DNA of 33,034 nt from a virus. The stretch is taken from positions 1-33,034 of IMG/VR virus record IMGVR_UViG_3300049043_000356. One strand, 5' to 3'. Made by a program: the position numbers and the translations under genes. Shown piece after piece: positions 3,147 through 30,290 of the stretch. The notes under the pieces are model-generated. The model ran no database searches. It worked only from the letters and a program-made list of their open reading frames with translations, and had not been told where the DNA came from. How positions within the stretch are numbered: the stretch's first letter is position 1; each line of letters opens with the position of its first letter.

Positions 3147-5162
3147 TTGCATGTCACCGCCGCCGCCGAATGTCACCGACGCTACGGAACCAACGCGAAA
3201 ACCAAGTTCCTTAACGGGACTGTTGTCGTCGTTGATTCAGCCCCATCCTCGACCAAGAAGCGGGCTGTGACTCTCATCACTGCCAACTTCGAGCTTGGTG
3301 GGGGTACAACCAAACGGCATCGGTTGAATTCAAGATCTGTCAAGGCTGGTGAAGCACCATCAATGATTGTCGTCCAACCAGAACCCGTGATTGAAACCGT
3401 GACTGAAAATCTCGAACCCACCAACGACACCCATGTTGCCCTGACAGCCCCTGAAGGTGTTCCAACCAGTCCGTTGGTTGGTGAATCGATCATTGATGAT
3501 GAGAGGGTGACACTTGCACCATCTATTGCTTCCCCAGACCCTCCTCTAGTGATCATTCAAGCAGCACCAATGGTGTTAGCAGCAAGAGAAGTCAATCCAG
3601 TGGATGTTGATGTTGTGACAGTGGCCCATGGGACAGATTGGGTCAGAGCATCTCGAATTGACCCGCCATTGAACGGCAATGTCCCTTTGCGCCAATGGAG
3701 TGTTCAGTCTATGGTTGGCGACATCTTCTATCCTGGGGGTCCCAACAATGGACAGCATGGAGATCAAATGTCACCACTTGATTACTTTATGTTGATGTTT
3801 CCTGCAAAGCAGCTGAGTGCAATGGTGCGACTTACAAATGTTCAACTTCACTTGAAAAACCTCCAACTAACAATGACAGGCGAGATATTGAAATGGTTTG
3901 GACTAATTATTTTGACAACTAAGTTTGAATTCGCTTCAAGGGCATCCTTGTGGTCAACGGTTGCACATTCGAAATATCGACCAGCCCCTCAGTTTGGTAT
4001 GACTGGAATGAGTCGGAACAGGTTTGATGATTTGTTCAGTGCGATTCGATGGAGCTACCAGCCTATTACGCGACTTGATGAGGTGTCATCCGAGCAGTAT
4101 CGTTGGATGTTGATCGACGACTTTGTCAAGAACTTCAATAAGCATTGCGAAAGTTATTTCAATCCATCTGATACCATTTGTGTTGATGAATCTATGTCTC
4201 GATGGTATGGGCAGGGAGGCCATTGGATAAACCATGGCCTCCCCCAATATATTGCAATTGATCGAAAGCCTGAAAACGGATGTGAAATTCAAAATGCTGC
4301 TTGCGGTAGAAGTGGAGTTATGTTAAGACTTAAGTTGGTGAAGGGTACTGATCTGGTTGGCGATGATGATGAGAATCATGACCGCAACGAAAACAATTTG
4401 CTTCATGGTACACAAGTTCTCAAGTATCTTGTCTCACCCTGGTTTGGTTCACACAGGATTGTTTGTGCAGATTCCTACTTTGCTTCTGTTGGTGCTGCTA
4501 AAGAATTGTTTGCAAATGGTCTTCGTTTCATCGGTGTTGTCAAAACTGCAACTCGTGGTTTTCCAAAAACTTATCTGTCTGCTGTTGAACTTGCAAACCG
4601 TGGTGACTTTCTTGCACTCAAGTCTGTTCTGCCTCCTGCTAATGATGGTGTTCCTGCCAATGTTGGAGGTGCTTTAATGGCGGCATTTGTTTGGATGGAT
4701 AGGGAGCGACGATACTTTATCTCGACAGCAGGTTCTCTGGAGGCAGGAACTCCATACACTCGTTGTCGTTGGCAACAGATTGACCCTACACCCAGTGCTC
4801 CTCCACAGAGGGTTCATCTGACTATTGAGCAACCCAAAATTGCGGAAATCTATTATTCAACATGTGCATCAATCGACCGACACAATAGGTGTCGGCAAGA
4901 CAATCTTGGCATTGAAAAGAAAATCGAAACAAAAGATTGGTCGATGCGTGTGAACTTGTCCATTTTCTCAATGATTGTGGTTGACAGTTGGCTTGTCTAT
5001 TCTGCTATTAAGAACCATGAGAATCCAATGACAGCTGGAAACCAAAAGGACTTCTATTCTATGTTATCTGAGGAGCTTATCGACAATAATTATGACTTCA
5101 AAGGTCGAACGGTAGGTCTCAGGCGTTCTCCTACATCGAACTATCAAGATGCCTGTCTGTAG
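3147..5162 (+). CDS. PiggyBac-type transposase, catalytic part
   Basis: This protein would cut and paste its element at TTAA sites. After a Pro/Val-rich, low-complexity N-terminus of about 190 residues comes a DDE_Tnp_1_7-like domain. The motifs are ICVDESMSRWYG (Asp347), a conserved run around IDRKPENGCEIQNAACG, IVCADSYFAS (Asp442) and ASIDRHNRCRQDNL (Asp577), matching the usual three-Asp spacing of the family. The hydrophobic segment VVDSWLVYSA follows as in relatives. The frame stops at 5162 before the C-terminal zinc-binding tail, which continues in another frame. The start at 3147 is simply the first ATG in frame; an upstream exon is possible. The family is common in diatoms and other stramenopiles, which supports a eukaryotic origin for this part of the contig. 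Confidence 0.85.
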   Translation: MHVTAAAECHRRYGTNAKTKFLNGTVVVVDSAPSSTKKRAVTLITANFELGGGTTKRHRLNSRSVKAGEAPSMIVVQPEPVIETVTENLEPTNDTHVALTAPEGVPTSPLVGESIIDDERVTLAPSIASPDPPLVIIQAAPMVLAAREVNPVDVDVVTVAHGTDWVRASRIDPPLNGNVPLRQWSVQSMVGDIFYPGGPNNGQHGDQMSPLDYFMLMFPAKQLSAMVRLTNVQLHLKNLQLTMTGEILKWFGLIILTTKFEFASRASLWSTVAHSKYRPAPQFGMTGMSRNRFDDLFSAIRWSYQPITRLDEVSSEQYRWMLIDDFVKNFNKHCESYFNPSDTICVDESMSRWYGQGGHWINHGLPQYIAIDRKPENGCEIQNAACGRSGVMLRLKLVKGTDLVGDDDENHDRNENNLLHGTQVLKYLVSPWFGSHRIVCADSYFASVGAAKELFANGLRFIGVVKTATRGFPKTYLSAVELANRGDFLALKSVLPPANDGVPANVGGALMAAFVWMDRERRYFISTAGSLEAGTPYTRCRWQQIDPTPSAPPQRVHLTIEQPKIAEIYYSTCASIDRHNRCRQDNLGIEKKIETKDWSMRVNLSIFSMIVVDSWLVYSAIKNHENPMTAGNQKDFYSMLSEELIDNNYDFKGRTVGLRRSPTSNYQDACL

Positions 5163-5539: not shown

Positions 5540-5711
5540 AATCCGTCTGGTGTCAACTTTTATAACGAAAAAATGAAGTTTTGGAAGCGAACTTCATAAT
5601 TAGGAATTTTCAATAACGTATTGCTAATCAAGAATCTCTGAAACATTTATGAAATTGTTCATCCAAAACTTGCTGTTCGCCTACTGTAGCTAAGTTGACA
5701 CCAGCGGAATT
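5540..5711. repeat. Inverted-repeat element of about 170 bp (MITE-like)
   Basis: CTGGTGTCAACTT at 5547-5559 is matched by its exact reverse complement AAGTTGACACCAG at 5692-5704. The arms extend imperfectly outward (AATCCG and AATTCCG). The interior is AT-rich and non-coding. The size and structure suit a small non-autonomous transposon or a hairpin-forming end of a larger element. It sits between the piggyBac element and the next transposon-type gene. Confidence 0.45.
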
Positions 5712-5755: not shown

Positions 5756-7392
5756 ATGTGTACTAGTAGTAGCATAAGACTCCCCGATGTTTGGAGAGAA
5801 ACCCATTCCGATCTGCGAGCCACAGTGCATTTCACGATGTCGTCATCCACCGCACCGTTTGTCAATATGGCTGGCAGTCGCTGCCCTAATCCATTGTGTC
5901 CAAAAAGTTCCAAAACGTTTGCCACTGGTCGGTCGTTGTCCCAGCATCTACAACATCACGCTACATGTGCAAGTTTTGTCCTTGACAATGGTGCAGCGAC
6001 ATCCACTGGCAGCGTACATAAAAACGCATCACCACTGATCGCCACGACAGTGCAGAGTACAAAACGTCCGCGTCTTCTTCGCCGTGACGTTTTATCAGGT
6101 CAATTGGCTCCACAGGTAACCGGCAATGCCAGCAACGTGCTAGTAATGCCTGCTCCTATTAATAGTCCATCACGCGATAACAACGACGACGATCATGGTG
6201 AGGATTTTGTCAACGTCGAGGAGCCTCCTGCCGCGGACGAAGTAACTACCACCATCAACTCGGATAGGGATTCGGGGGTCATTCATTCAACTACGCAAAG
6301 GTGGACCGTGTCATTACTAAAGTTGCTGAATGACATGAATGCGCCCGACTACGCGTTTAGTCAATTGCTACAGTGGGGTAGTAACGCAATGTCCGATGGG
6401 TACACATTCAATCCCCCCGGTGGTGTCAACCGCAACCGGAACATTGCTGAATTATACGATACCTTGCACAACGCCGATAAACTGAGACCACGCGTGCAGA
6501 CTGTTGTGTGTCCTCCGGCTGAACCCAGTGATGTTATCATATTTGACTTTGCGCCTCAACTTCTCTATTTACTGCAAAATCCGGCTCATATGACGGCTAA
6601 GAATCTCATTGTGGATCCGCAGAATCCACTCCAACGCTATGCCCCTTCGGATGGCCGTCTGGGCGAGGCCTGCAGTGGAACCGTATATCGCACGGCATAT
6701 GACCGTCTCATTACCAATCCGGCAACACAATTCTTTGTGCCAATCATACAATGGATTGACCGGACATCAATTACCGGCAATGCCAGGTTTTCATTAAAGC
6801 CTTACATGTTTACGCCGGCAATATTCACAGAGGAATTTCGACGAACAATTCATGCTTGGGGTTACCATGGCTTTCTTCCAAAGCCAAAAGTGTCGTCTGC
6901 TCAAAACATCAACCAACGTCAAGGGGATAACATCCGCCGGTACCATGCACAGCTATCGGCAGTCCTTAACTCTTACCAGCTGGCCGGCCCTCAATTACGG
7001 AATGTACAACTCCCGTTAGGTCCCACGGGTTCCATGTGTGTCGACATTGTCACCTGTATTCTGTTTATCATTCAGGATATGCAGGAAGGGGATATGTTGT
7101 GCGGTCGCTTTGGTCCACATACAAGTCTCATTCAACGTCAATGCCGTGCCTGTGATATTGGATACTTTGCCTTGAATGATCCGTACATAGCATGTCGATA
7201 TCTCTACTCTGAACCGATGCATCTGATTGCATGTTCCGCCGACACCCAGTTACGACAGCGATGGTCCCAACATCACTTGGACAATGCGTTTCATCATGTT
7301 GTTTTCGGTGATCCTACCCGCGGTATATTTGGCGCTACACCTGTTGAAACAATGCATGGGTACCAAAAAGGCATGATAGAGGATGGCATGGT
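5756..7392 (+). CDS. Large diatom transposon-type protein, truncated at junction
   Basis: The N-terminal 545 or so residues of a 719-residue frame. The start could be 5756, 5837 or 5867 (Met before AGSRCPNPLCP). Near the start CPNPLCP plus HLQHH make a C2H2-like finger, then an acidic linker, then a long domain with LLNDMNAPDYAFSQLLQWG, FDFAPQLLYLL, TAYDRLITNPATQFFVPII, FIIQDMQEGDMLCGRFG, a CRACD cysteine pair and IFGATPVETMHG. I recall this order from highly repeated diatom proteins thought to belong to transposons; the exact superfamily is unclear to me. Homology appears to run to about GMIEDG, after which the sequence abruptly becomes phage-like. The natural C-terminus is therefore missing. 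Confidence 0.6.
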
Positions 7393-7405
7393 GATTTCTG
7401 GCAGC
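7380..7405. other. Diatom-to-phage junction inside one open frame
   Basis: Upstream the frame reads the diatom-type motif TPVETMHGYQKGMIEDG. Immediately downstream it reads ISGSTTLPAYVYRATISVAS, a Gly/Ser/Thr-rich bacteriophage structural style, and everything to the right is phage. No transposon end, target duplication or attachment site is visible at the join. I consider it a chimeric join; the open frame across it has a one-in-three chance of arising randomly. Confidence 0.7.
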
Positions 7406-7915
7406 ACTACTCTGCCTGCTTACGTCTACCGTGCCACCATTTCCGTTGCTTCTGGTTGGGGTGACGGCCGTGTTGCTTCCGGCATTTATGCCGCTACTGG
7501 CAACGTGGTTACCTTCTGCCGTGATTCCAGTGGTCCCGTGGCTTCCACGGGCGTTGGTGAGGCTGTGGCCCAGGCCAACCTGACCTCTACTACTTCCGGC
7601 TCCCAGCCTGGTGAAATCTTCTTCGCCGCCGGTTCGGCTGCTTACGGCACCAACCCCTTCCTGACTGCTACCGGCGCTGCCGGCGTTATTGCCTCTGGTG
7701 TTAACCTCCAGGTGACTGGCGCTACCACCTTCAAGGTGTTCGCCCGTGGCACCACAACTGGTCTGACAACTTCTGGTGGCTTCTACATTTCCAGCGGTGA
7801 CTCCACTTCTGGTCGCTCTGGTTATCTGGTTGTTGAAGTGTGCTACATCCAACCGGATGAAGCCCCTGGTTACGAAGACATTGACGGCTACCTTCTTGGT
7901 CGCACAGTTAGCTGA
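7395..7915 (+). CDS. Phage virion-type protein, C-terminal part only
   Basis: About 173 residues rich in Gly, Ser, Thr and Val with short beta-strand-like stretches (VFARGTTTGLTTSGGFYISS, SGYLVVEVCYIQP), ending DGYLLGRTVS. It resembles capsid, decoration or tail proteins of cyanophages by composition and by its place at the head of a run of structural genes. The true start is missing because the left side of the contig is foreign. No enzymatic motif is seen, so I give only a general structural call. Confidence 0.55.
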
Positions 7916-8444: not shown

Positions 8445-9182
8445 ATGGCCGGTTTAATTCCAATAGGAACAATTGCTGATCATTTAAAAGATCCTCTTCC
8501 CACAACGGGCCCTCACCTTGACCCCCGTGTTATACCTTGTTTTGGTCCACAGTCGGGCAAACGAGTTAACCCTGAAGAGGCAAAGAGCCTGCTGCAAAAT
8601 GTTTTAGTAGGCCCAAATCAAACTCCCCTGGTTCAGCAAACAAAAAGCGGTATGGCAGTGGAATTTTCCTATTACCAGTAAATACGGTTCACGAACAGCT
8701 CCAACGAAAGGCGCAAGTAGTTTTCATGAAGGAATCTGACATAGCAATTTCGGCTGGTACACCGCTTGCTTACAAAGGTTACGGTTCTTTTCAGCCGGAA
8801 AAAGGCTATGGTGTTTTGAAAACAACTGATGCGCAAGGCAATCCATACGACATTCAATTCCTTCATATAACCCGAACAAAAACAGCGGAAGTTAAAGCAA
8901 AACCAACACCTGGCCCTTTGACTCAAGAAACCGATTCCAACCGTACAGCGGATATTCTTAAAGCTTTTATTTACGGAACACAAACAGCAAAAGAAGAAAA
9001 ACCGCAAAAAACTTTTCGTGATGCAATTATGGAAGAGTTGCTCAGCAGTGCGGTTTCTCAAGGCGTTAAATCCAACGTCTTTTTTAAGTGAGTATCCAGC
9101 TACCAATCCGTCGCTTGCCGGTCAACGTGCTGCTACTTCTGATTCTTTGGTGGCATCTTTGGTTGATTACTTGCTTTTATAA
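8445..9182 (+). CDS. M23-like peptidase domain phage protein (frame-broken)
   Basis: Three pieces restore to about 245 residues: 8445-8681, a bridge in another frame, and 8726-9091 plus a tail to 9182. The restored centre reads FPITSKYGSRTAPTKG, then SSFHEGIDIAISAGTPLAYKG, matching the opening of M23 (lysostaphin/LytM) zinc peptidases, with the metal-site HxGxD and a later QFLHI where M23 has HxH. The breaks are one extra T in the run 8664-8667, one extra T near 8736 and one extra T in 8080s-type run 9080-9085; removing them joins everything into one protein ending SLVASLVDYLLL. M23 enzymes cut peptidoglycan cross-links, so a tail-associated wall-opening role is plausible. The second His of HxH is not clear, so activity is uncertain. 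Confidence 0.6.
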
Positions 9183-9669: not shown

Positions 9670-10422
9670 ATGCAACAACCCACAGGCCCGTTTTCCCGTA
9701 AAACCTGGCAAACAATTGAAAATTTACCCGGACAAATTGTTGGCAATTTGGGGCGCCTTGGTTCTTATTTGAGCTCTGAAAAAGCCGCGCAAGATTATAC
9801 TAATTTGTTAAGGGGTTTTCCTGCAAAAACAAAAGGATTACCAGAGAAACCCGTTGTACTTTCAGAAGCAGAAAGACTCGGAGCAAGTAATGCTGCAGAA
9901 CGTGCTTATCAAGAAAAGCGTCGTGCGGAGCAATTAGCAGCGCAAGATCAACTGGCAAAAAAATATCGTGTTGCAGATTTAACAAAAGCTTATAACGCTG
10001 CAAAAGGTGAAGAAAAAGAAAAAATTGGCCTTGAAATCTGGGCAACAACTAATCCTCAGCTTGCTGCAAAACTACGTCCCGGCCAGCTTGGTTACAACGA
10101 AACAGTTAATGCGTTTCAGGCGCAAGGTCCCATGGGGGCTGTTGCCAAGGCCATTGGAAACATGCAGTATGCAAATAAGTTGGGAGAAACCACCTTTAGT
10201 CCCGGCGCTCCTGCGAGCAATGCCTTTGAAGTAGCCACGCCACTTACCGGCGTTTCTTTTACACCGCCGCCTCAGGCTGGCGTTAATGAAGTATTTAACG
10301 CGGCCACTGCATTTCCTGGCACCACGGAGGCATTCACCGATCCGCTTAAGTTTCTTTCATCAAGCACAACCCAGGCAGACCAAGCCATTATTAAACGATT
10401 ATTTGAGCGTGGTTTAAAATAA
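9670..10422 (+). CDS. Phage hypothetical protein, 250 aa, helical
   Basis: ATG at 9670 follows GGAGG (9660-9664), better than the in-frame ATG at 9658 that overlaps the preceding gene. The first half is strongly helical and charged (Ala/Lys/Glu-rich, AAERAYQEKRRAEQLAAQDQ), compatible with a coiled coil over residues 65-115. The second half is Pro/Gly/Ala-rich and flexible. No domain is recognised. Location among virion genes suggests an internal virion or tail-assembly protein; that is inference from context only. Confidence 0.6.
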   Translation: MQQPTGPFSRKTWQTIENLPGQIVGNLGRLGSYLSSEKAAQDYTNLLRGFPAKTKGLPEKPVVLSEAERLGASNAAERAYQEKRRAEQLAAQDQLAKKYRVADLTKAYNAAKGEEKEKIGLEIWATTNPQLAAKLRPGQLGYNETVNAFQAQGPMGAVAKAIGNMQYANKLGETTFSPGAPASNAFEVATPLTGVSFTPPPQAGVNEVFNAATAFPGTTEAFTDPLKFLSSSTTQADQAIIKRLFERGLK

Positions 10423-10528
10423 ATATTTGATGAATTAATTATCTGGCTTCTTTTAATCAAAGTGTAAGCCCAGCCTGCTGAACACGAATCCTTGTATTCA
10501 TGGGAGTCAGCGTAGTTGCTTTAATCTG

Positions 10529-10654
10529 ATGATTCTTTGTCCTAATTTTGTCAAACGCCTTGCTACCACCGTTAGTTTAGTTGCAGCAGCACAAACGGTA
10601 TTTACCCCCGGTCTCAAGGCGGAGTCAAATTGGGTAGGAAAACAAAGGAGCTAG
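10529..10654 (+). CDS. Small protein with possible signal peptide
   Basis: A 41-residue frame reading MILCPNFVKRLATTVSLVAA with a basic n-region, a hydrophobic stretch and an AxA-like end around GLKAES, followed by a short tail NWVGKQRS. It ends four bases before the lysozyme ATG and its last codons overlap that gene's GGAG ribosome site. This could be a short exported protein or simply a leader whose translation couples to the lysozyme. The frame is too short for certainty. Confidence 0.3.
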   Translation: MILCPNFVKRLATTVSLVAAAQTVFTPGLKAESNWVGKQRS

Positions 10655-10658
10655 GAGT

Positions 10659-11202
10659 ATGTCTTTAAACGATGCCGCCAGTATTGTCGCAAGGAAGCTG
10701 AGAGCGCAAGGCTATACTCCTGCGCAAACAGCAGGCATCCTTGGCAATTTCAAACAAGAGTCTGGTTTTAATCCTCGTGTAAATGAGGGCGGCTTTGTGG
10801 GCGCCCCTAGGGGACAAGGTGGTTTCGGCCTTGCTCAGTGGACGGGCGGCAGGCAGGAAGCCCTTATAAACTTTGCAAAGAAACGAGGGGTACGACCCAG
10901 GCGATCCGAATTTACAAACGGACTTTCTTTTGTATGAATTGGCTGGGCCAGAGAAAGCGGCGGCGGCCTCCTTGCGCCAAGCAAAATCTCCAGAGCAAGC
11001 CGCTTTGGTTTTCCGAAGAGATTTTGAACGGGCTGGTATCCCTAAAGATGAAGTTCGCATGAAGGCTGCACGACAGTTGTTGCCTGCGATCGACGCTCTT
11101 GGTGCACCTCAAACCGCTGCTGGCTCAACGCCGACAGATCAAAGGTCTGTTGAAGAAATTCTTTCTTCTTCTTTAGGGCTAGGACAAAAAAAGAGTTTTT
11201 GA
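10659..11202 (+). CDS. Phage tail lysozyme (lysozyme-2 family), frame-broken
   Basis: The N-terminus reads ARKLRAQGYTPAQTAGILGN then FKQESGFNP, the signature of the phage tail lysozyme family, with Glu34 as the likely catalytic acid, and continues through GLAQWTGGRQEALINFAKK. The frame then breaks in the G run 10887-10890; removing one G joins it to GYDPGDPNLQTDFLLYEL and on to the stop at 11200. A second break in the T run 11196-11200 would extend the protein through ENVNAKADDLRRTFFNLVLP to about 11300, just before the next start. The enzyme would cut peptidoglycan glycan strands during genome entry. GGAG lies eight bases before the ATG. Confidence 0.8.
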
Positions 11203-11299
11203 GAATGTTAATGCAAAGGCGGATGATCTTCGGCGCACATTTTTTAATCTCGTTTTGCCCGCCGTCATTAACCCAACGGGTTTAATACGGATTACCCTA

Positions 11300-11572
11300 A
11301 TGGCACGTTTTTCTGAATATTTAGATTATGAATATTTGCCAGGAGAAGTTTATTCTTCTGGATTAAGTGACTATCGTTTGAAGCCTCAGGCGGTGATTGA
11401 TTACATAACCAATAAACGGTTTAAGTTTGAGGGTGATGAAGATCGTGGAGAATTCTTTCAAAAGTTTTTAAGATTACAGGCTAATCCAAACGCTTTAATA
11501 GAAGAAAAGATGAAGTTTCCACAACGTTTCGAAGACTTTATGAGCCTGTCTTCCTTGGGTGGTAATCAATAA
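11300..11572 (+). CDS. Small phage hypothetical protein, 90 aa
   Basis: Chosen start ATG at 11300 (MARFSEYLDYEYLPGEVYSS); the frame is open further upstream, but that part belongs to the C-terminus of the lysozyme. The protein is rich in Phe, Tyr and charged residues with no recognised motif. Its restart right at the end of the lysozyme frame and before a large virion gene fits a small tail or assembly protein. No function can be assigned. Confidence 0.5.
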   Translation: MARFSEYLDYEYLPGEVYSSGLSDYRLKPQAVIDYITNKRFKFEGDEDRGEFFQKFLRLQANPNALIEEKMKFPQRFEDFMSLSSLGGNQ

Positions 11573-12395: not shown

Positions 12396-13966
12396 ATGGC
12401 TAAAAAGAGTGGAAACTCTTTTGGTTCTTTTAATCAAATTACCGTTTTAGACGTCAACAAGGTACTGCCAATTAGAACAGAGTTTTCAAAAGGCTCTGTT
12501 CCCAACTCCTTGTATTCAATAAACTTTGAGTCTGCTTGGTCCAGATGGCGTCGGGGCTTTGAGCTTTACTGCAACTCAACATACAATCAAATCTATAGTT
12601 ATCCTTTTGATTATCTTATTCCTCTGCCGCCGGGAACGGTAATTCCCCCGGTTCAAATCCACCACGAATTCCAGGCGCTTTTCAAGGATTCCCGACTAAA
12701 AACAAAGAACTTGGAATGCATTGGGCGGGTGTTCGTCTTGCTGGTAGCCTTCGTTTCGACAACGTAAGAGATAGTGTCGGAACACCGGCTTCCATTGCAT
12801 CTGTTACGGAAGACGAAAACTATTGGTACGTTCAACTTACAGGAGCCTGGAGCTCTGTTAATACGTTGCCCGCACCATTGTTTATTAAACCTGTAGGACC
12901 AATCCCCAAGCAATATCCAATCAACGGAGAAATTCTAGAGGATCGCGTTATTACCGCTGGTGGCACAGTCATCAATAGTCAAACAATTGATCCGACAACA
13001 CAGAAAAGATATGGCTATGTTCAGGCTGTTTTAATTTCAACAAATGAAGCTACAGGTGTCTTAACACTTCAAAAAGAAGGATCAGTTGAATCAACGCCGG
13101 ACGGTATCTTAAGAACACCTGCAACACGACCTCCAAACGTTGGTCGATACTTAATTACGGGTGCACGATATTGTTGTTCTTGCCAAGACTTTAATAGGCG
13201 CGAGTTTGCTTATTTATCAAACCTTGGTAATAGCACCGCCAAGAAACGTTTTCCTTTGACGCGAATCTCCACAATTAAACCCGGTCGTCATGAACGCATG
13301 ACCTTAAACGGTGCAGTGGATAACAGCGCAATGACCGGAGCAGATGTCAATCGAAAGATGGAAGTGATTGCGCCGTCTGCACCCTATAACGTACCTCCAA
13401 CTGTTACTCCAACCGTATCCACTGACCCTCGTTCAACCAGGGATGATCCTGGTGTTTATCGAGATTTTGGTAACGTTTTTCTTAGAAATCGACCGTCGCC
13501 CAGTATTCCTGGCGCGGTTGCGGACGGCATGCCTTTGTATGAAGATTATTCGACAACAACAGATGAATACGGAGCAACAACCATCACTTCTTTAACTGAT
13601 TATTGGACACCGTTGCTAGACGAAGTTCGATACTGTAAACATATTTATGCAATGAAATTTTCTGAAAAAATATTTCCGCCTGAGCCTTCTGATTTTCCTG
13701 TAAATGTAGAAAGCATGTCCCAGTGGGAGCAGGAGCTTGTAGATAAAGTTTTAAAAGATAATCGTGAAGCTGCATATAATTTGGCGCTAAAAGGACTTGC
13801 AACCATGGATGTACCTCCTTACAACTGCCAAGCTCCGATGATGATGCCAATGATGCAGAAGCTGTTTAACGTTCCTTCTACTTTTGTGCTGATGAGCGGT
13901 TTTAGAATGTATGACAAAAATGGTACGGAATATAATCCTTCTCAAGGTGGTTCGCCAGCTACATAA
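12396..13966 (+). CDS. Large phage structural protein, frame-broken once
   Basis: Two frames (12396-12767 and 12716-13966) restore to about 523 residues by adding one T to the run 12679-12682, giving HHEFQALFQGFPTKNKELGMHW across the break. Notable features are RWRRGFELYCNSTYNQIYSY near the N-terminus, a cysteine cluster GARYCCSCQDFNRREFAYL, and a Met-rich C-terminus (MMMPMMQ). I recall similar cysteine-cluster proteins among cyanophage virion genes, but not a function. The stop overlaps the next start (taATGg at 13965), showing coupled translation. Confidence 0.65.
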
Positions 13967-15049: not shown

Positions 15050-15319
15050 ATGTTCAATAGTGAACAGGATCCCCTCGCCCTGCTCATTGAATTAACTCCG
15101 AAGCTAGCAAAGAAACGTTATCGACAATCCATTTACGAAGCCTGGGATTGCAAGTGTGGTTACTGCGGGGAAGAAGCAACGTCCCTGGATCATATCGTCC
15201 CTAGGTTTCGCTCTGGTTCCAGTAATCGAAACAATCTGATTCCTGCCTGTAGGCGTTGCAACACAAACAAAGCAAGTGCCAAGATGGAAGACTGGTATCT
15301 GTCAGCAGGACTATTTTAG
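15050..15319 (+). CDS. HNH endonuclease, McrA-like
   Basis: An 89-residue protein with the full compact HNH core: CKCGYCGEEATSLDHIVPRF (zinc knuckle plus catalytic DHI), NRNNLIPACRRCNTNKAS (second cysteine pair and Asn). The length and layout suit small stand-alone phage HNH nucleases, which nick or cut double-stranded DNA and often act in packaging or as homing genes. Here it stands alone after a divergent control region, not next to terminase genes, so a free-standing homing-type role is more likely. Confidence 0.85.
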   Translation: MFNSEQDPLALLIELTPKLAKKRYRQSIYEAWDCKCGYCGEEATSLDHIVPRFRSGSSNRNNLIPACRRCNTNKASAKMEDWYLSAGLF

Positions 15320-15334
15320 CAGAAGCTACGGATG

Positions 15335-15718
15335 GATAAAATTCAAGTCTTGGATGATCTCAGAGAATCCATAGACATCGCCACTGTTTCAGTTACTGCG
15401 TTACAGATACAGCTCGACTGGTAGCAGGATAGTGGGCATTTTTTACGATCCGTCCAGTAAAAAACGGAATGGATCACGTAATTGGAAAAAGCGGATTATA
15501 CCCGGAGGAATTACGCACTGATCGATCGGAAGTGATACAGTCAGCGCCAATTAATGCAACATCCTTGTGATGGCGCAATTGGTTGGGTGATCGTTGCAGA
15601 AGAGCGTTGGGTACGCGTTGGATACCTGACAACAAGCAATTGTTGCAATCAATGCGGCAGCGATGGCAAAAACAGCTTAATCAAAACACAAACAAGCTGA
15701 TATTAAAACAACAAACAT
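15335..15718 (+). pseudogene. Frame-broken phage coding remnant
   Basis: No intact frame, yet pieces read as protein in different frames: MDKIQVLDDLRESIDI from 15335, YTRRNYALIDRK further on, and a clean end RWIPDNKQLLQSMRQRWQKQ running to a TAA near 15718. This looks like one small helical protein split by several indels. The function is unknown. The damage is denser than in most phage genes here. Confidence 0.35.
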
Positions 15719-15819
15719 AATATAGGAATGATGCATCCATCACACAAAGGAAGCTTGACAGAACTAAAAAGAAACAAACACAGCTTTAAATGTTAAAAAC
15801 ACTAATAAAAATAAAATTT

Positions 15820-18105
15820 ATGACAGCAGGCAATAGCAGCGGCATCGCGTACACGAGGCGGCGATTATGTTGCCCAGCGAGACCCCCTGACTTTCTCAGG
15901 TTGATTCTCTGGCTTAGATAAAAGTTTCAAAGACAATATTAATCAAAATTTTCGAAACTTTTATACCACTGAAAAATTACAAACATGGGACGGCAATAAA
16001 CTTCGGGGCCAAGCCGTTATATGGGGACTTTAATCCGACGTACTACAAAAAGCAAAATCCAGATGTTGCACAAGCGTGGACAGCAGCTAAGGCAATTGAT
16101 GACGTAGATGTTGTTGATAGGTATGGTGAAAATCAATATTACTTATGGCATTACACAACACAGGGCAAATCAGTCAGGCATACGTGGAAATCCAGCCAGA
16201 AATTGCTGAACAAGCGCCAAAGCCTATGTTGAAGAAAAACCAACATGGATCAAGATATTCAAGCTGTAAGAGATCTGCAGTTAGGCGTAAATATTGATAC
16301 GCAAACACAAAGACTATTAAACATACCTGCGGTTGCAAGTGCTTGGGAGAACGCTAAAAATAAGTGATCCTTATTGGATAAATTTAGCCAAAGAAAAATA
16401 CCTGGACGTTACCAAACCAGATGAGTTTGCAGCATTATTTCGCTTGTCAGAAAGACCAGAAGATAAACAAGTTGCTTTTAATTACAACGCCAACGCGGGA
16501 TATGGCATTACCGAATTAGAGGATGCAATTAGCCAGGCGGTTGGTGAAAAAGCAGCCGTTGACGTCAAGCGTTTTGGCGCATTGACTCAAGATGTCTTAA
16601 AGCAAACGATTGAAGAAATGAAGCAAGCAAAAGCAAAAGAACAAATGCTCGGCTTGATGAGTGGGTTTGGTGGTTTTAGTGAGATTACAAATATAAATAA
16701 AGAGTTAACAAATTCTATTCTTGGAGATTCGGGAGTAGGCGGACTTCTTTCATTTACTTCTGCTGGAAAAGCCGAAGAATCCTTAGAGAAAAGTCTGCAA
16801 AATATAACTGGCGTGCGTAATAACGCAACATATAATTGGCAGCAATGGTTTGATGGCGAGTTAAAAAAACGATATGAACAAGATTTGGAGCTTGGCTATA
16901 CAACAGCAGAAGCTCAAGACCAAGTAAAAATTCAAGCAGATTTTGCAAGACAGTTTATTGATGAATATTTAATACCTCGTTTTAATACTTCAAAATCAAT
17001 GGACGAATTTGTTGAATATTTAGATGTTCGACAAGAAGAACAAAACCCGTTCCAGACTCAAGACATGGTTAACGCGGTAAAGCTTGTTGCTGACTTACGC
17101 GCAAACCAATATTTAACAGACATTCAAAAAATGCAAGATCAATATTTTAATGCAGACTTTTACTTCAATCCAGTCGGCAATAAAGCGCGAGAGGCTGACT
17201 ATTTAAATCAAGCCAAAATGGTTTCAGAAGATTGGGAGGCGGCTAAAAAAGGAGACCCTTATTGGGCTCAACAGGCATATCGCTTTGGTATTGATCTTAA
17301 CGATAAAGATGCTTTTGCCAGAATTCACTTCCAAGTAAAAGGACAAGGCAGGGGTTTTGACGCAGCCAAAGATATCCTGACTACTGGTGGCGTGCAAGAC
17401 GAAATATACGGTCGTATTCTTCCAGCGCTAAAAGAAGAAGCTTTGAAGCAAGGAACCGTTTTTGGTCAATTTGTTTTACCTGAAGAATTTGCTGATGAAA
17501 TGTTGCGTGGCTTGGACCCCAGCGATAAATCGACCTGGGAAGAAGTGTTAAAGCGCTACGGACTAACAGATTTTAAAGGCGATATTCAAGAGCTTAAAAA
17601 CTATATTGTAGAGACACTGCGCACTGGTACCGCCCAGGATATCCGGGAACAAATTAAATATTTGAATGAAAAAAGACAAAAACCAACACAAGAAGTTCTT
17701 GGCATTACTTACATTGAAAGACCCGAAGATTACACGGATAAACAGGCTAAGCCCTCAACAGAACTTTATAGTGTGTTTCAAAAAGCTGGTTACCAAGGAA
17801 CAGAAGACGAGTTTTACCAGAATTTTTTCCCTGATCTAGACCGCTCCGAACAAACGATTCTTACTAAGGCAGGTTCCAATGAAGCCTTAAAAACATACGG
17901 TCTTGATTTCAGCGACCCGTTTGCCTCCCTTGGTACGGTTGAAAGCTTCTTTACTGATGAAGAAGAGCCTTCTACTACGGACAAAGAAAAGTCTTCAAAT
18001 TTCTTTAGCTTAAAATTAAATGAGGACGAAGAAGAAACGAATTACAAATCCAAGACTGGCACACAAATCCTGGGTGAATTCACTTCAATGTTTAAAGGAC
18101 TCTAA
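15820..18105 (+). CDS. Large NPDVA-motif virion-type protein, 5' part frame-broken
   Basis: The intact frame 16333-18105 (590 aa) is the C-terminal part of a longer protein. Upstream, pieces in several frames read KSFKDNINQNFRNFYTTEKL, FNPTYYKKQNPDVAQAWTAA, ENQYYLWHYTTQGKSV and DIQAVRDLQLGVNIDTQTQR, the last joining the long frame if one A is removed from the run 16356-16360. The likely start is ATG at 15820. The protein shows repeated DPYW or NPxYY boxes (SDPYWINLAKEKYLDV, GDPYWAQQAYRFGIDL), a pattern I associate with cyanobacterial and cyanophage proteins carrying NPDVA motifs. It is helical, charged and acidic at the C-terminus. It may be an internal virion or tail protein. Function unknown. 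Confidence 0.6.
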
Positions 18106-26157: not shown

Positions 26158-28545
26158 ATGCCGTACGGTACGATAAAAGTTGACACCATCACATTTACCG
26201 CTGGTGGTGCGGATACCAGCGTTTCAATTTCTGGTTTAGTTCAAAACCCCACTTTTAGTGGAAACATTACCTCTACCGGCACTATTTCCGGTAACGTGAT
26301 CCAGGGTGGCACAACTGTTTCTGGTGCAACCGTAACTGGTGCCGCAGGTCAGTTCGGAACATTAACAGGTAACACTGCAGGCTTTACGACTGTTACCGGT
26401 ACAACTGTTACCGGTACAACTGCAAACTTTGTAACTGTATCCGGAACTACCGTCACCGGAACCACTGGAAATTTTGGCGGCACCGTAACTGCTGCGACTA
26501 TTCGAGGCACCACTACCGTTTCCGGTGCAACGGTTACAGGAAACGCAGGTAGTTTTACAACAGTAACTGGTGGCGTTGCAACAATTACTTCTGGTGTTTT
26601 TGCTGCTGGTACTGAAGCATTACCCAGCATTTCCTTTGCTTCTGATCCAAACACCGGCATTTATTCCCCTGGCGCAGATCAACTAGCCCTCGCCACTGGT
26701 GGGTCTGGGAGGTTGTTTGTTGATAGTCTTGGGCGAATTTGTAATCGGTAATTCAACAAGTACACCAGTTGCCGGTTTTAATACCTCACTTCAAATCCAG
26801 GGCACTTCTTTCGATACAGCAGGAGTAGCCTTAACAAGTGTTGCCGGCAAACAACACAGGCTCTTACTTACTACTTGGAAAAGCAAGAGAGGCTCTTTAG
26901 GTGGTTACACAATAGTAAGCAACTGGCGCTAATCTTGGCGGCAGATTCGTTTTTGCAGGTGCTGAATGGTGTCAAATATGTAGAGGCTGCCTATATAGGT
27001 GTCGCCTGTAATGGGGCTCCCGGCAGTCAACATACATGCCGGTGAAGGTTATTCGTTTTCTACGTAATTCATGGCAGTGCATCTGTTACCGAAAGACTGT
27101 GTATTACTCCTTCTGGCCTCGTAGGCATAGGGACATCAGCCCTCAGCACCTCTTGCATGCTGCAGGAATTCTGCAGATGACAACATGAGCATTCTGCGAT
27201 TCAACTCACGTACTGGCAACATCTGGCGAAGCAACTGCTTTTAGCTTAACGGCAGGACTAATTACGCCATTTTCGGTTCGTCTGCTACAACTGAGAACTG
27301 AGCGTTATTCGCGCTTCAGGTAATTACACGGATCATGATGGATTAGGGATTGGCACTGGTCGACCCTGCATGACATTCACTAGCTGTAGCTGTTCTAGCG
27401 AACGTTCGTTCAAGACTAGCAGTGCAAGGAGTATGCGGATGTTGGCACTAGTGCATGCTACGGACCAGCTGACTAGTTACAAGCGTATCGAATCCGGCTG
27501 TTACGATGCTTGCAACTCTATTGCTCGCCGAGACTGGACGCGGCATCAGCGGAAAGTACGCCCGCATCGACAGCTCCGGCAGGCTTCTTCATGGGCACGT
27601 CTAGTGCGCACAGGTGATTCAGGGTCAACTCACGTCGTTTCAAGATCGAACAAGTATCAGGTAACTCATGGCGCGAGCATTGTTCGAGATGCTGGACGGT
27701 CAAGGCGCTCTGCTTTCGTTCGGTAGTCGGGTTCAGCCGTATGTCTGATACTATTGCTAATAGTGGCGACACCTTAGGCGGATCTGCATTTTGTGCGTGC
27801 CGATGGCAGCAAACTAATCACAGGTGCAAGTTGCATGGCCAAGTAGATCGGCAACCCGGCACCAACGATATGCCCTGGCCGCCTAGTGTTCAGCACTACA
27901 AGAGACGGCGCTTCATCACCAACCGAAGCAGTTCGGATAACGCAAAAGGGGTACATTAAATGCACCAGTAAGGCTACTACTCCGTATTACGACTCAAACG
28001 GCGCGTTTCACGAACTTGTTAGCGATAACTCCAACAATATTGCCGTTTTTAGCAGCTATGGCACAACTCCTTATGGACCTTATATTTATTATTCCACAAC
28101 TCCAAATAACACTAGCAGTGAGTTTTTAACCTGTACTGATGCGACTACAACTCGTGCAGCCATTAGATCGAATGGCGGCCTCGCCAATTACAGTGCCAAC
28201 AACGTCAACCTTTCCGACCGCAACGTCAAAAAAGACATTGCACCTGCTGCTGGCACTTGGAACTGCCTGAAAGAGTGGGAAATCGTCAACTTCCGCTACA
28301 AGGATCAGCCAGACGATGCTGACCTGAACATGGGTGTTATCGCCCAGCAGGTTGCCGAGAGCTGCCCGGAAGTGATCCAGGTGTTCCAAGAGGAAAAGGA
28401 AGCCACCGAAGATAAGCCAGCGCAAGAAGAGCGGATTGGCGTCAAAGAGCAACAGATGATGTGGATGGCAATCAAGGCGCTGCAGGAAGCACAGGTTCGC
28501 ATCGAAGAACTGGAAGCCAAAGTTGCAGCCCTTGAGGCGTCGTAG
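26158..28545 (+). CDS. Tail fibre with C-terminal S74 self-cleaving chaperone (frame-broken)
   Basis: Begins MPYGTIKVDTITFTAGGADT followed by TG/SG repeats (VTGTTVTGTTANFVTVSGTT) and ASDPNTGIYSPGADQLALAT, a classic phage-fibre block. From 26738 the frame breaks repeatedly, yet fibre motifs persist in all frames: VIGNSTSTPVAGFNTSLQIQ, RGSLGGYTIVSN, TERLCITPSGLVGIGTSAP, SDTIANSGDTLGG, DRQPGTNDMP. The intact end 27886-28545 carries LSDRNVKKDIAPAAGTWNCL, NFRYKD and NMGVIAQQVAE, the peptidase S74 intramolecular chaperone that helps trimerise the fibre and then cuts itself off at the SD site, and a final coiled coil (QVRIEELEAKVAALEA). The fibre would determine host binding. Confidence 0.75.
26930..27740 (+). 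other. Heavily frame-damaged part of the S74 fibre gene
   Basis: Within the fibre gene this stretch has no frame longer than a few dozen codons that fits the family, although fragments do (VKYVEAAYIGVACNGAPGSQ, then GLVGIGTSAPQHLLHAAGIL). Several breaks are not in homopolymers, for example an extra AG near 26890. It may be low-coverage sequence or mixed variants of related phages. Confidence 0.5.
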
Positions 28546-29354: not shown

Positions 29355-29435
29355 TAGTCACCTTCAACTCTGGCGCTGGTGTTGACATGCGTCGGGTGGT
29401 GCATTAGTGTGCCACCCTCGCAACCATTTCAACTC

Positions 29436-30290
29436 ATGCCAACCACCTTGACGGAACTGTGGGACGCCTTCATGGAGGAGCGTTCTATTTCCTTGTGTCC
29501 CACCAGTCTTGATTCAGACTACAAGCAAGTTGGTAAGTGGTTAGCCCGCTGCCCAATTCAAGATTTTAATGAAGCCAGAAAAATCATGATCTGGGTGCTG
29601 GGAGAAAAGCCAGTGCTTTCTTCCAGGCGCGTGGCCATGTATACCAAGACAATGTTTAGGTGGGCTGCACAGGAGGATGTGGGCTATCTAGACAAAAATC
29701 CCCTGGCAAGTTTCAAAATGCCAAAGGCTCCTCAAAGGGATGAAGAAATTATTGTCATCCCAAGAAATGAAGTGGGGTTGGTGCTTGCCGCTTTGGAAGC
29801 AAAGCTGACTTACAAAAAGGTTAATTGGGCTTGGTATACCGAATTTATGATTCAAACTGCCATGCGTACAGGAGAAGTAAGGGCATTACGTTGGGATGAC
29901 ATTAAAGATAATAAGATTCTGGTGCATTCTAATTGGACATTGACGCATGGCTTGAAAAATAGCACCAAAACTAATAAGAAAAGATGGGTGCCGCTGAACA
30001 ATAAATGTCAGGAAATACTAACAAAACTTCCGCAAGAGCAAGAATATATATTCCCTTGGGATCGTCTTGCGTTTCAAAGTTACTTTCGTAAAAAATTACA
30101 GCCGCTCTATAAAGCTGAATTAATTTCTCATATGTATCGTCCTTACGACTGTAGGCATACGGCAATTAGCCGTTGGATTGAAGCTGGTATTCCCGTGCCG
30201 CAAGTGGCTTTATGGGCTGGAAACACCTCGGAGATTATTTTCAAGCACTATTGCAATACGACAAAGGAATATGATATGCCAGAGCTGTGA
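29436..30290 (+). CDS. Tyrosine-type site-specific integrase
   Basis: A 284-residue recombinase that would insert or excise the phage DNA. The N-terminal 100 residues form a SAM-like core-binding domain (TTLTELWDAFMEERS, MYTKTMFRWAAQEDVGYLDK). The catalytic domain shows TAMRTGEVRALRW (Arg144), the beta-hairpin lysine region KTNKKRWVPL, box II RPYDCRHTAISRW (Arg240, His241) and KHYC (nucleophile Tyr272). The usual first His of box II is Tyr237, and the later His/Trp position is Asn263 (AGNTSEII), so it is a diverged but probably active member. ATG at 29436 is chosen; the open frame upstream to 29379 reads as leader. Its presence implies a temperate phage or an integrated element. Confidence 0.85.
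   Translation: MPTTLTELWDAFMEERSISLCPTSLDSDYKQVGKWLARCPIQDFNEARKIMIWVLGEKPVLSSRRVAMYTKTMFRWAAQEDVGYLDKNPLASFKMPKAPQRDEEIIVIPRNEVGLVLAALEAKLTYKKVNWAWYTEFMIQTAMRTGEVRALRWDDIKDNKILVHSNWTLTHGLKNSTKTNKKRWVPLNNKCQEILTKLPQEQEYIFPWDRLAFQSYFRKKLQPLYKAELISHMYRPYDCRHTAISRWIEAGIPVPQVALWAGNTSEIIFKHYCNTTKEYDMPEL

Follow-up and report, generated by a model that had tools for sequence, protein, structure and literature searches.

Synechococcus phage S-EIV1 (KJ410740.1) and its many IMG/VR relatives have a gene content and order in common with the right part of the window, by which we mean the whole 33034-base IMG/VR record analyzed here. The left part contains frames that resemble two described types of transposase. 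The domain of Plavaka transposases (PF18759) is present, with a match of residues 260-544 to positions 46-320 of the 325-position profile that lies above the curated cut-off, and a frame of 671 aa shares with piggyBac transposases (PF13843) a full domain match. In contrast with the known elements, the Plavaka-type coding region ends at the junction with phage DNA, any C-terminal part and the right end being absent, and the piggyBac-type frame shifts near 5149, ahead of the cysteine-rich tail. The window also carries frameshifting indels similar to those of long-read viral metagenomes (PMC6487183, PMC8018248), whose chimeric reads bring unrelated DNA together as is seen here, where a chimera is the probable cause. 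Chimeric reads represented 0.01-0.19% of the reads in the later protocol (PMC8018248); they had been found before, yet no chimerism was found in the final assemblies (PMC6487183), and for that reason the passage of a chimeric read into the contig is one that we infer in the present case.

Our analyses indicate that the window is very probably an artefact, i.e., a chimeric molecule, read or assembly in which a fragment of a eukaryotic genome with piggyBac and Plavaka transposons would meet, at 7384|7385, a 25.6-kb genome fragment from an otherwise ordinary cyanophage related to S-EIV1. A fusion protein of transposase and phage sequence would then not exist. The record should be taken as a warning. 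Because it has many frameshifts and its first 7.4 kb are of eukaryotic type and not viral, one would be misled on gene content or host by reading it, for instance, as a phage that possesses eukaryotic transposases. The features on which this reading is based are collected in Table 1.

Table 1. Features of the window, with coordinates, strand and supporting evidence.
Feature	Position	Strand	Evidence or remark
piggyBac-type transposase (DDE_Tnp_1_7)	3147..5162	+	Pfam PF13843 E=8.7e-41, full profile 1-349
Plavaka-type transposase, 3' end cut by join	5756..7384	+	Pfam PF18759 E=5e-11
Junction of eukaryotic-type and phage DNA	7384..7385		Alignments of relatives, composition, junction 20-mer
C-terminal two thirds of conserved S-EIV1-type protein (AHV82229 homologue, residues 91-263)	7385..7915	+	tblastn 71%
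Remaining S-EIV1-like genome fragment, ended by contig end	7951..33034	+	Gene order as in KJ410740
Robust frameshifts (13)	8652, 8737, 9062, 12651, 15299, 16004, 16170-16192, 16246, 16362, 21624, 22091, 23042, 25187		
Frameshift-dense patch in tail-fibre gene	26740..27873	+	~12-17 frame changes relative to intact relatives, nearly all of them within these 1.1 kb
Phage tyrosine integrase	29379..30290	+	PF00589 E=1.4e-14; phrog_1 E=3.8e-40

An earlier note, made from the sequence alone, had described a single open reading frame at 5756-7915 that passes from a transposon part to a phage part, with the join in the region 7370-7420. The ORF list and its translation do contain an uninterrupted frame of 719 codons (719 aa) at this place, and within the proposed region the join could be resolved to one base. 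The homology of the frame to the S-EIV1 protein AHV82229 begins with base 7385, in codon 544. At the nucleotide level, the alignments to the best 80 IMG/VR relatives and to S-EIV1 started at 7385 (7384 in two rows), and none of them began further left of the join. Going leftward, the match to L002, the closest relative, dropped at 7385 from 16-20 to 3-8 bases per 20. This closest contig (L002/L165, 3300021962), which is 87.9-92.2% identical to the window over the main aligned blocks, continues as straight phage sequence through the join position. The join is sharp and located inside two unrelated coding regions; speaking against an artefact, it lies outside the frameshift-dense patches, and the reading on either side is clean. 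Its 20-mer matched no other IMG/VR contig. As an in-frame, same-strand join is a one-in-six chance event, the open frame across it needs no explanation.

The phage sequences expected upstream of this position are missing. The N-terminal 90 codons of the AHV82229 homologue are contiguous in 80 of the best 80 IMG/VR relatives, all of which run on into phage DNA upstream of the gene. Where the flank suffices, AHV82228, AHV82224 and TerL were found there in 74/74, 24/24 and 17/17 relatives, respectively. Unlike S-EIV1, the window has nothing of what precedes residue 91 of AHV82229: the first 90 residues, AHV82228, AHV82224 and TerL are all absent from it. The phage fragment is therefore cut at the join, with no complete AHV82229 homologue together with the upstream structural and terminase genes. 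A chimeric join had been the preferred interpretation of the earlier note, and it is supported by the sharpness of the break, the intact gene with its neighbours in all 80 relatives and the uniqueness of the junction, as well as by the absence of phage DNA on the left and, in the phage half, of the decay that a stay in the nucleus should bring.

Composition was also analyzed on both sides. When the whole window was scanned for a change-point in 3-mer usage, unsupervised and without any homology information, the maximum was reached at 7400. Codon and dinucleotide use differed between the left and right sides of the join.

To the left of the join, the piggyBac-type frame matched, though weakly, the sequences of transposases with solved structures, namely piggyBat and others of piggyBac type. 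Upstream of it, at 2879-2923, are a TTAA-centred palindrome, GGGGTTAATTAACCCC, and a near copy. The palindrome at 2879 could be the left end of the piggyBac element; no confident right end matching GGGGTTAATTAACCCC was found by a TTAA and inverted-repeat search. A 20-nt inverted pair (85%) at 5540-5559 and 5692-5711 lies between the piggyBac and Plavaka frames, upstream of the latter. These sequences are possibly subterminal repeats, and they form the sole inverted pair available for the Plavaka element, of which the right end is missing. A Ser/Thr-rich frame of 395 aa on the minus strand (162-1346) had no Pfam or PHROG match.

Four frames of the left half were compared with PHROGs, without any relative being found, and phage records contained no DNA relative of the left 7.4 kb. 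Among the IMG/VR viral contigs, there was neither a relative of either transposase nor another phage-transposon join. The proposed division into a eukaryotic left and a phage right side holds as far as it is testable, the left side having the piggyBac and Plavaka matches and the right side the synteny with S-EIV1; the diatom character that had been attributed to the left side is putative, the domain matches showing eukaryotic-type transposases.

The region from 7951 to the contig end contains structural genes, an endolysin, a dCTP deaminase, tail fibres and an integrase. tblastn showed the S-EIV1 proteins to be collinear with the window from 7385 to about 30640. Along the window, AHV82229 (from residue 91) is followed by 82230, an M23 peptidase, 82232, 82234-82238, HNH, 82241, the endolysin, the dCTP deaminase and the tail fibres; relative to KJ410740, the order runs from AHV82230 through AHV82255 and then to AHV82127 and AHV82128. 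This gene-by-gene synteny confirms the cyanophage identity that had been claimed for the right side and places it in the S-EIV1 lineage. In a comparison of 12 gene segments with L165, dN/dS was 0.021 (dS 0.40, dN 0.008), and there were no in-frame stops, so that purifying selection on the phage half is strong.

Indels of 1-2 bases break conserved phage genes in the window that are intact in the relatives. Frameshift-aware alignments identified the 13 robust sites, each backed by nearly all covering relatives; isolated frameshifts were placed at 12652, 16364, 21623 (A6>A5), 22093 (G6>G5), 23044 and 25193. Rather than being scattered, the frameshifts are clumped in patches of ~0.5-1.1 kb. In the tail-fibre patch, where the available relatives are distant, the positions of the frame changes are individually uncertain, and the frame is intact on both flanks. 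This patch looks like sequencing error and resembles an unpolished single-read stretch. Smaller clusters are found at 8652-9141 (M23 peptidase) and 15299-16362 (HNH/AHV82241), where the covering relatives agree. A dinucleotide hint of a second foreign insert at 26.7-27.9 kb was rejected, as this region corresponds to the tail-fibre gene with its dense frameshifts. The observation that frameshifts clump while purifying selection is strong elsewhere suggests that the indels result from errors of unpolished long reads and not from decay. It is from the indels alone that we infer a long-read origin of the data.

The join would have formed in library preparation, as a ligation or amplification chimera, or in assembly. 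With error-prone long-read data, a chimeric molecule or read could enter a contig without homology at the join. Misassembly in a de Bruijn graph through a shared repeat appears unlikely, given that the phage-like sequence ends abruptly at 7385.

A real join would mean that a eukaryotic nucleus contains a large stretch of DNA from a bacterial virus: a cyanophage segment of 25.6 kb or more would have entered the nucleus of a transposon-rich microalga, recently and before selection was relaxed, and the insertion would have broken the Plavaka element. Such an endogenised phage would fit the contig, which is continuous as assembled, and the frameshifts of the phage half could be read as its decay. 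Nuclear residence is expected to relax selection on phage genes. However, the dN/dS of 0.021 and the lack of in-frame stops indicate that phage selection acted until very recently, arguing against a long nuclear stay, and dN to the nearest relative is only 0.008. The clustering of the frameshifts, which decay would have spread, the absence of the junction from any other contig and the distance of the integrase from the join also speak against this scenario, which we regard as very improbable. A literature search on cyanophage DNA in diatom nuclei and on diatom Plavaka elements gave nothing directly relevant.

Joins made by transposition arise at element ends, and those made by site-specific integration arise at att sites, which as a rule adjoin the integrase. 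The join lies inside a transposase coding sequence, has no transposon end and is ~22 kb from the integrase, and therefore neither process explains it. The absence of a transposon end had been noted before and was borne out, with no TTAA or terminal repeat at the break. That transposases adjoin the join might suggest that a phage genome received a eukaryotic transposon while replicating, but the break occurs within the transposase frame, and the left 7.4 kb comprise two different transposons and other DNA without any return to phage sequence on their far side. Furthermore, cyanophages are not known to come into contact with eukaryotic transposition machinery, which counts against this possibility and leaves it extremely improbable. 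Site-specific integration into eukaryotic or bacterial DNA could have been performed by the product of the phage integrase gene. Nevertheless, the join is inside a conserved phage gene and not at an att site beside the integrase, and the latter has phage genes on each side, the AHV82128 homologue coming after it. In addition, a search of prokaryotic (bacterial and archaeal) genomes for integrated copies with the joined phage protein yielded one weak partial match only, and we give this explanation hardly any credence. Finally, the single open frame of 719 codons might represent a functional gene combining a transposase N-terminus with a phage C-terminus. This too would be most surprising, since chance provides such a frame in one join out of six and the fusion is absent from every relative. 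It is almost certain that the fusion protein read from this frame is artificial.

Aside from the chimeric join that we favor, the phage half differs from S-EIV1 by its integrase. No gene is annotated as an integrase in KJ410740, whereas the window has one between the tail-fibre and AHV82128-like genes, with 113 relatives in IMG/VR viral contigs. Part of the S-EIV1-type lineage may thus be temperate. Within the phage half, L165 does not align at 8449-9164, 9672-11563 and 15652-16005, although the more distant L005 and L007 do align in the block 8449-9164 and in most of 9672-11563. From these alignments, the blocks missing from the L165 match appear to be mosaic alleles among S-EIV1-like phages.
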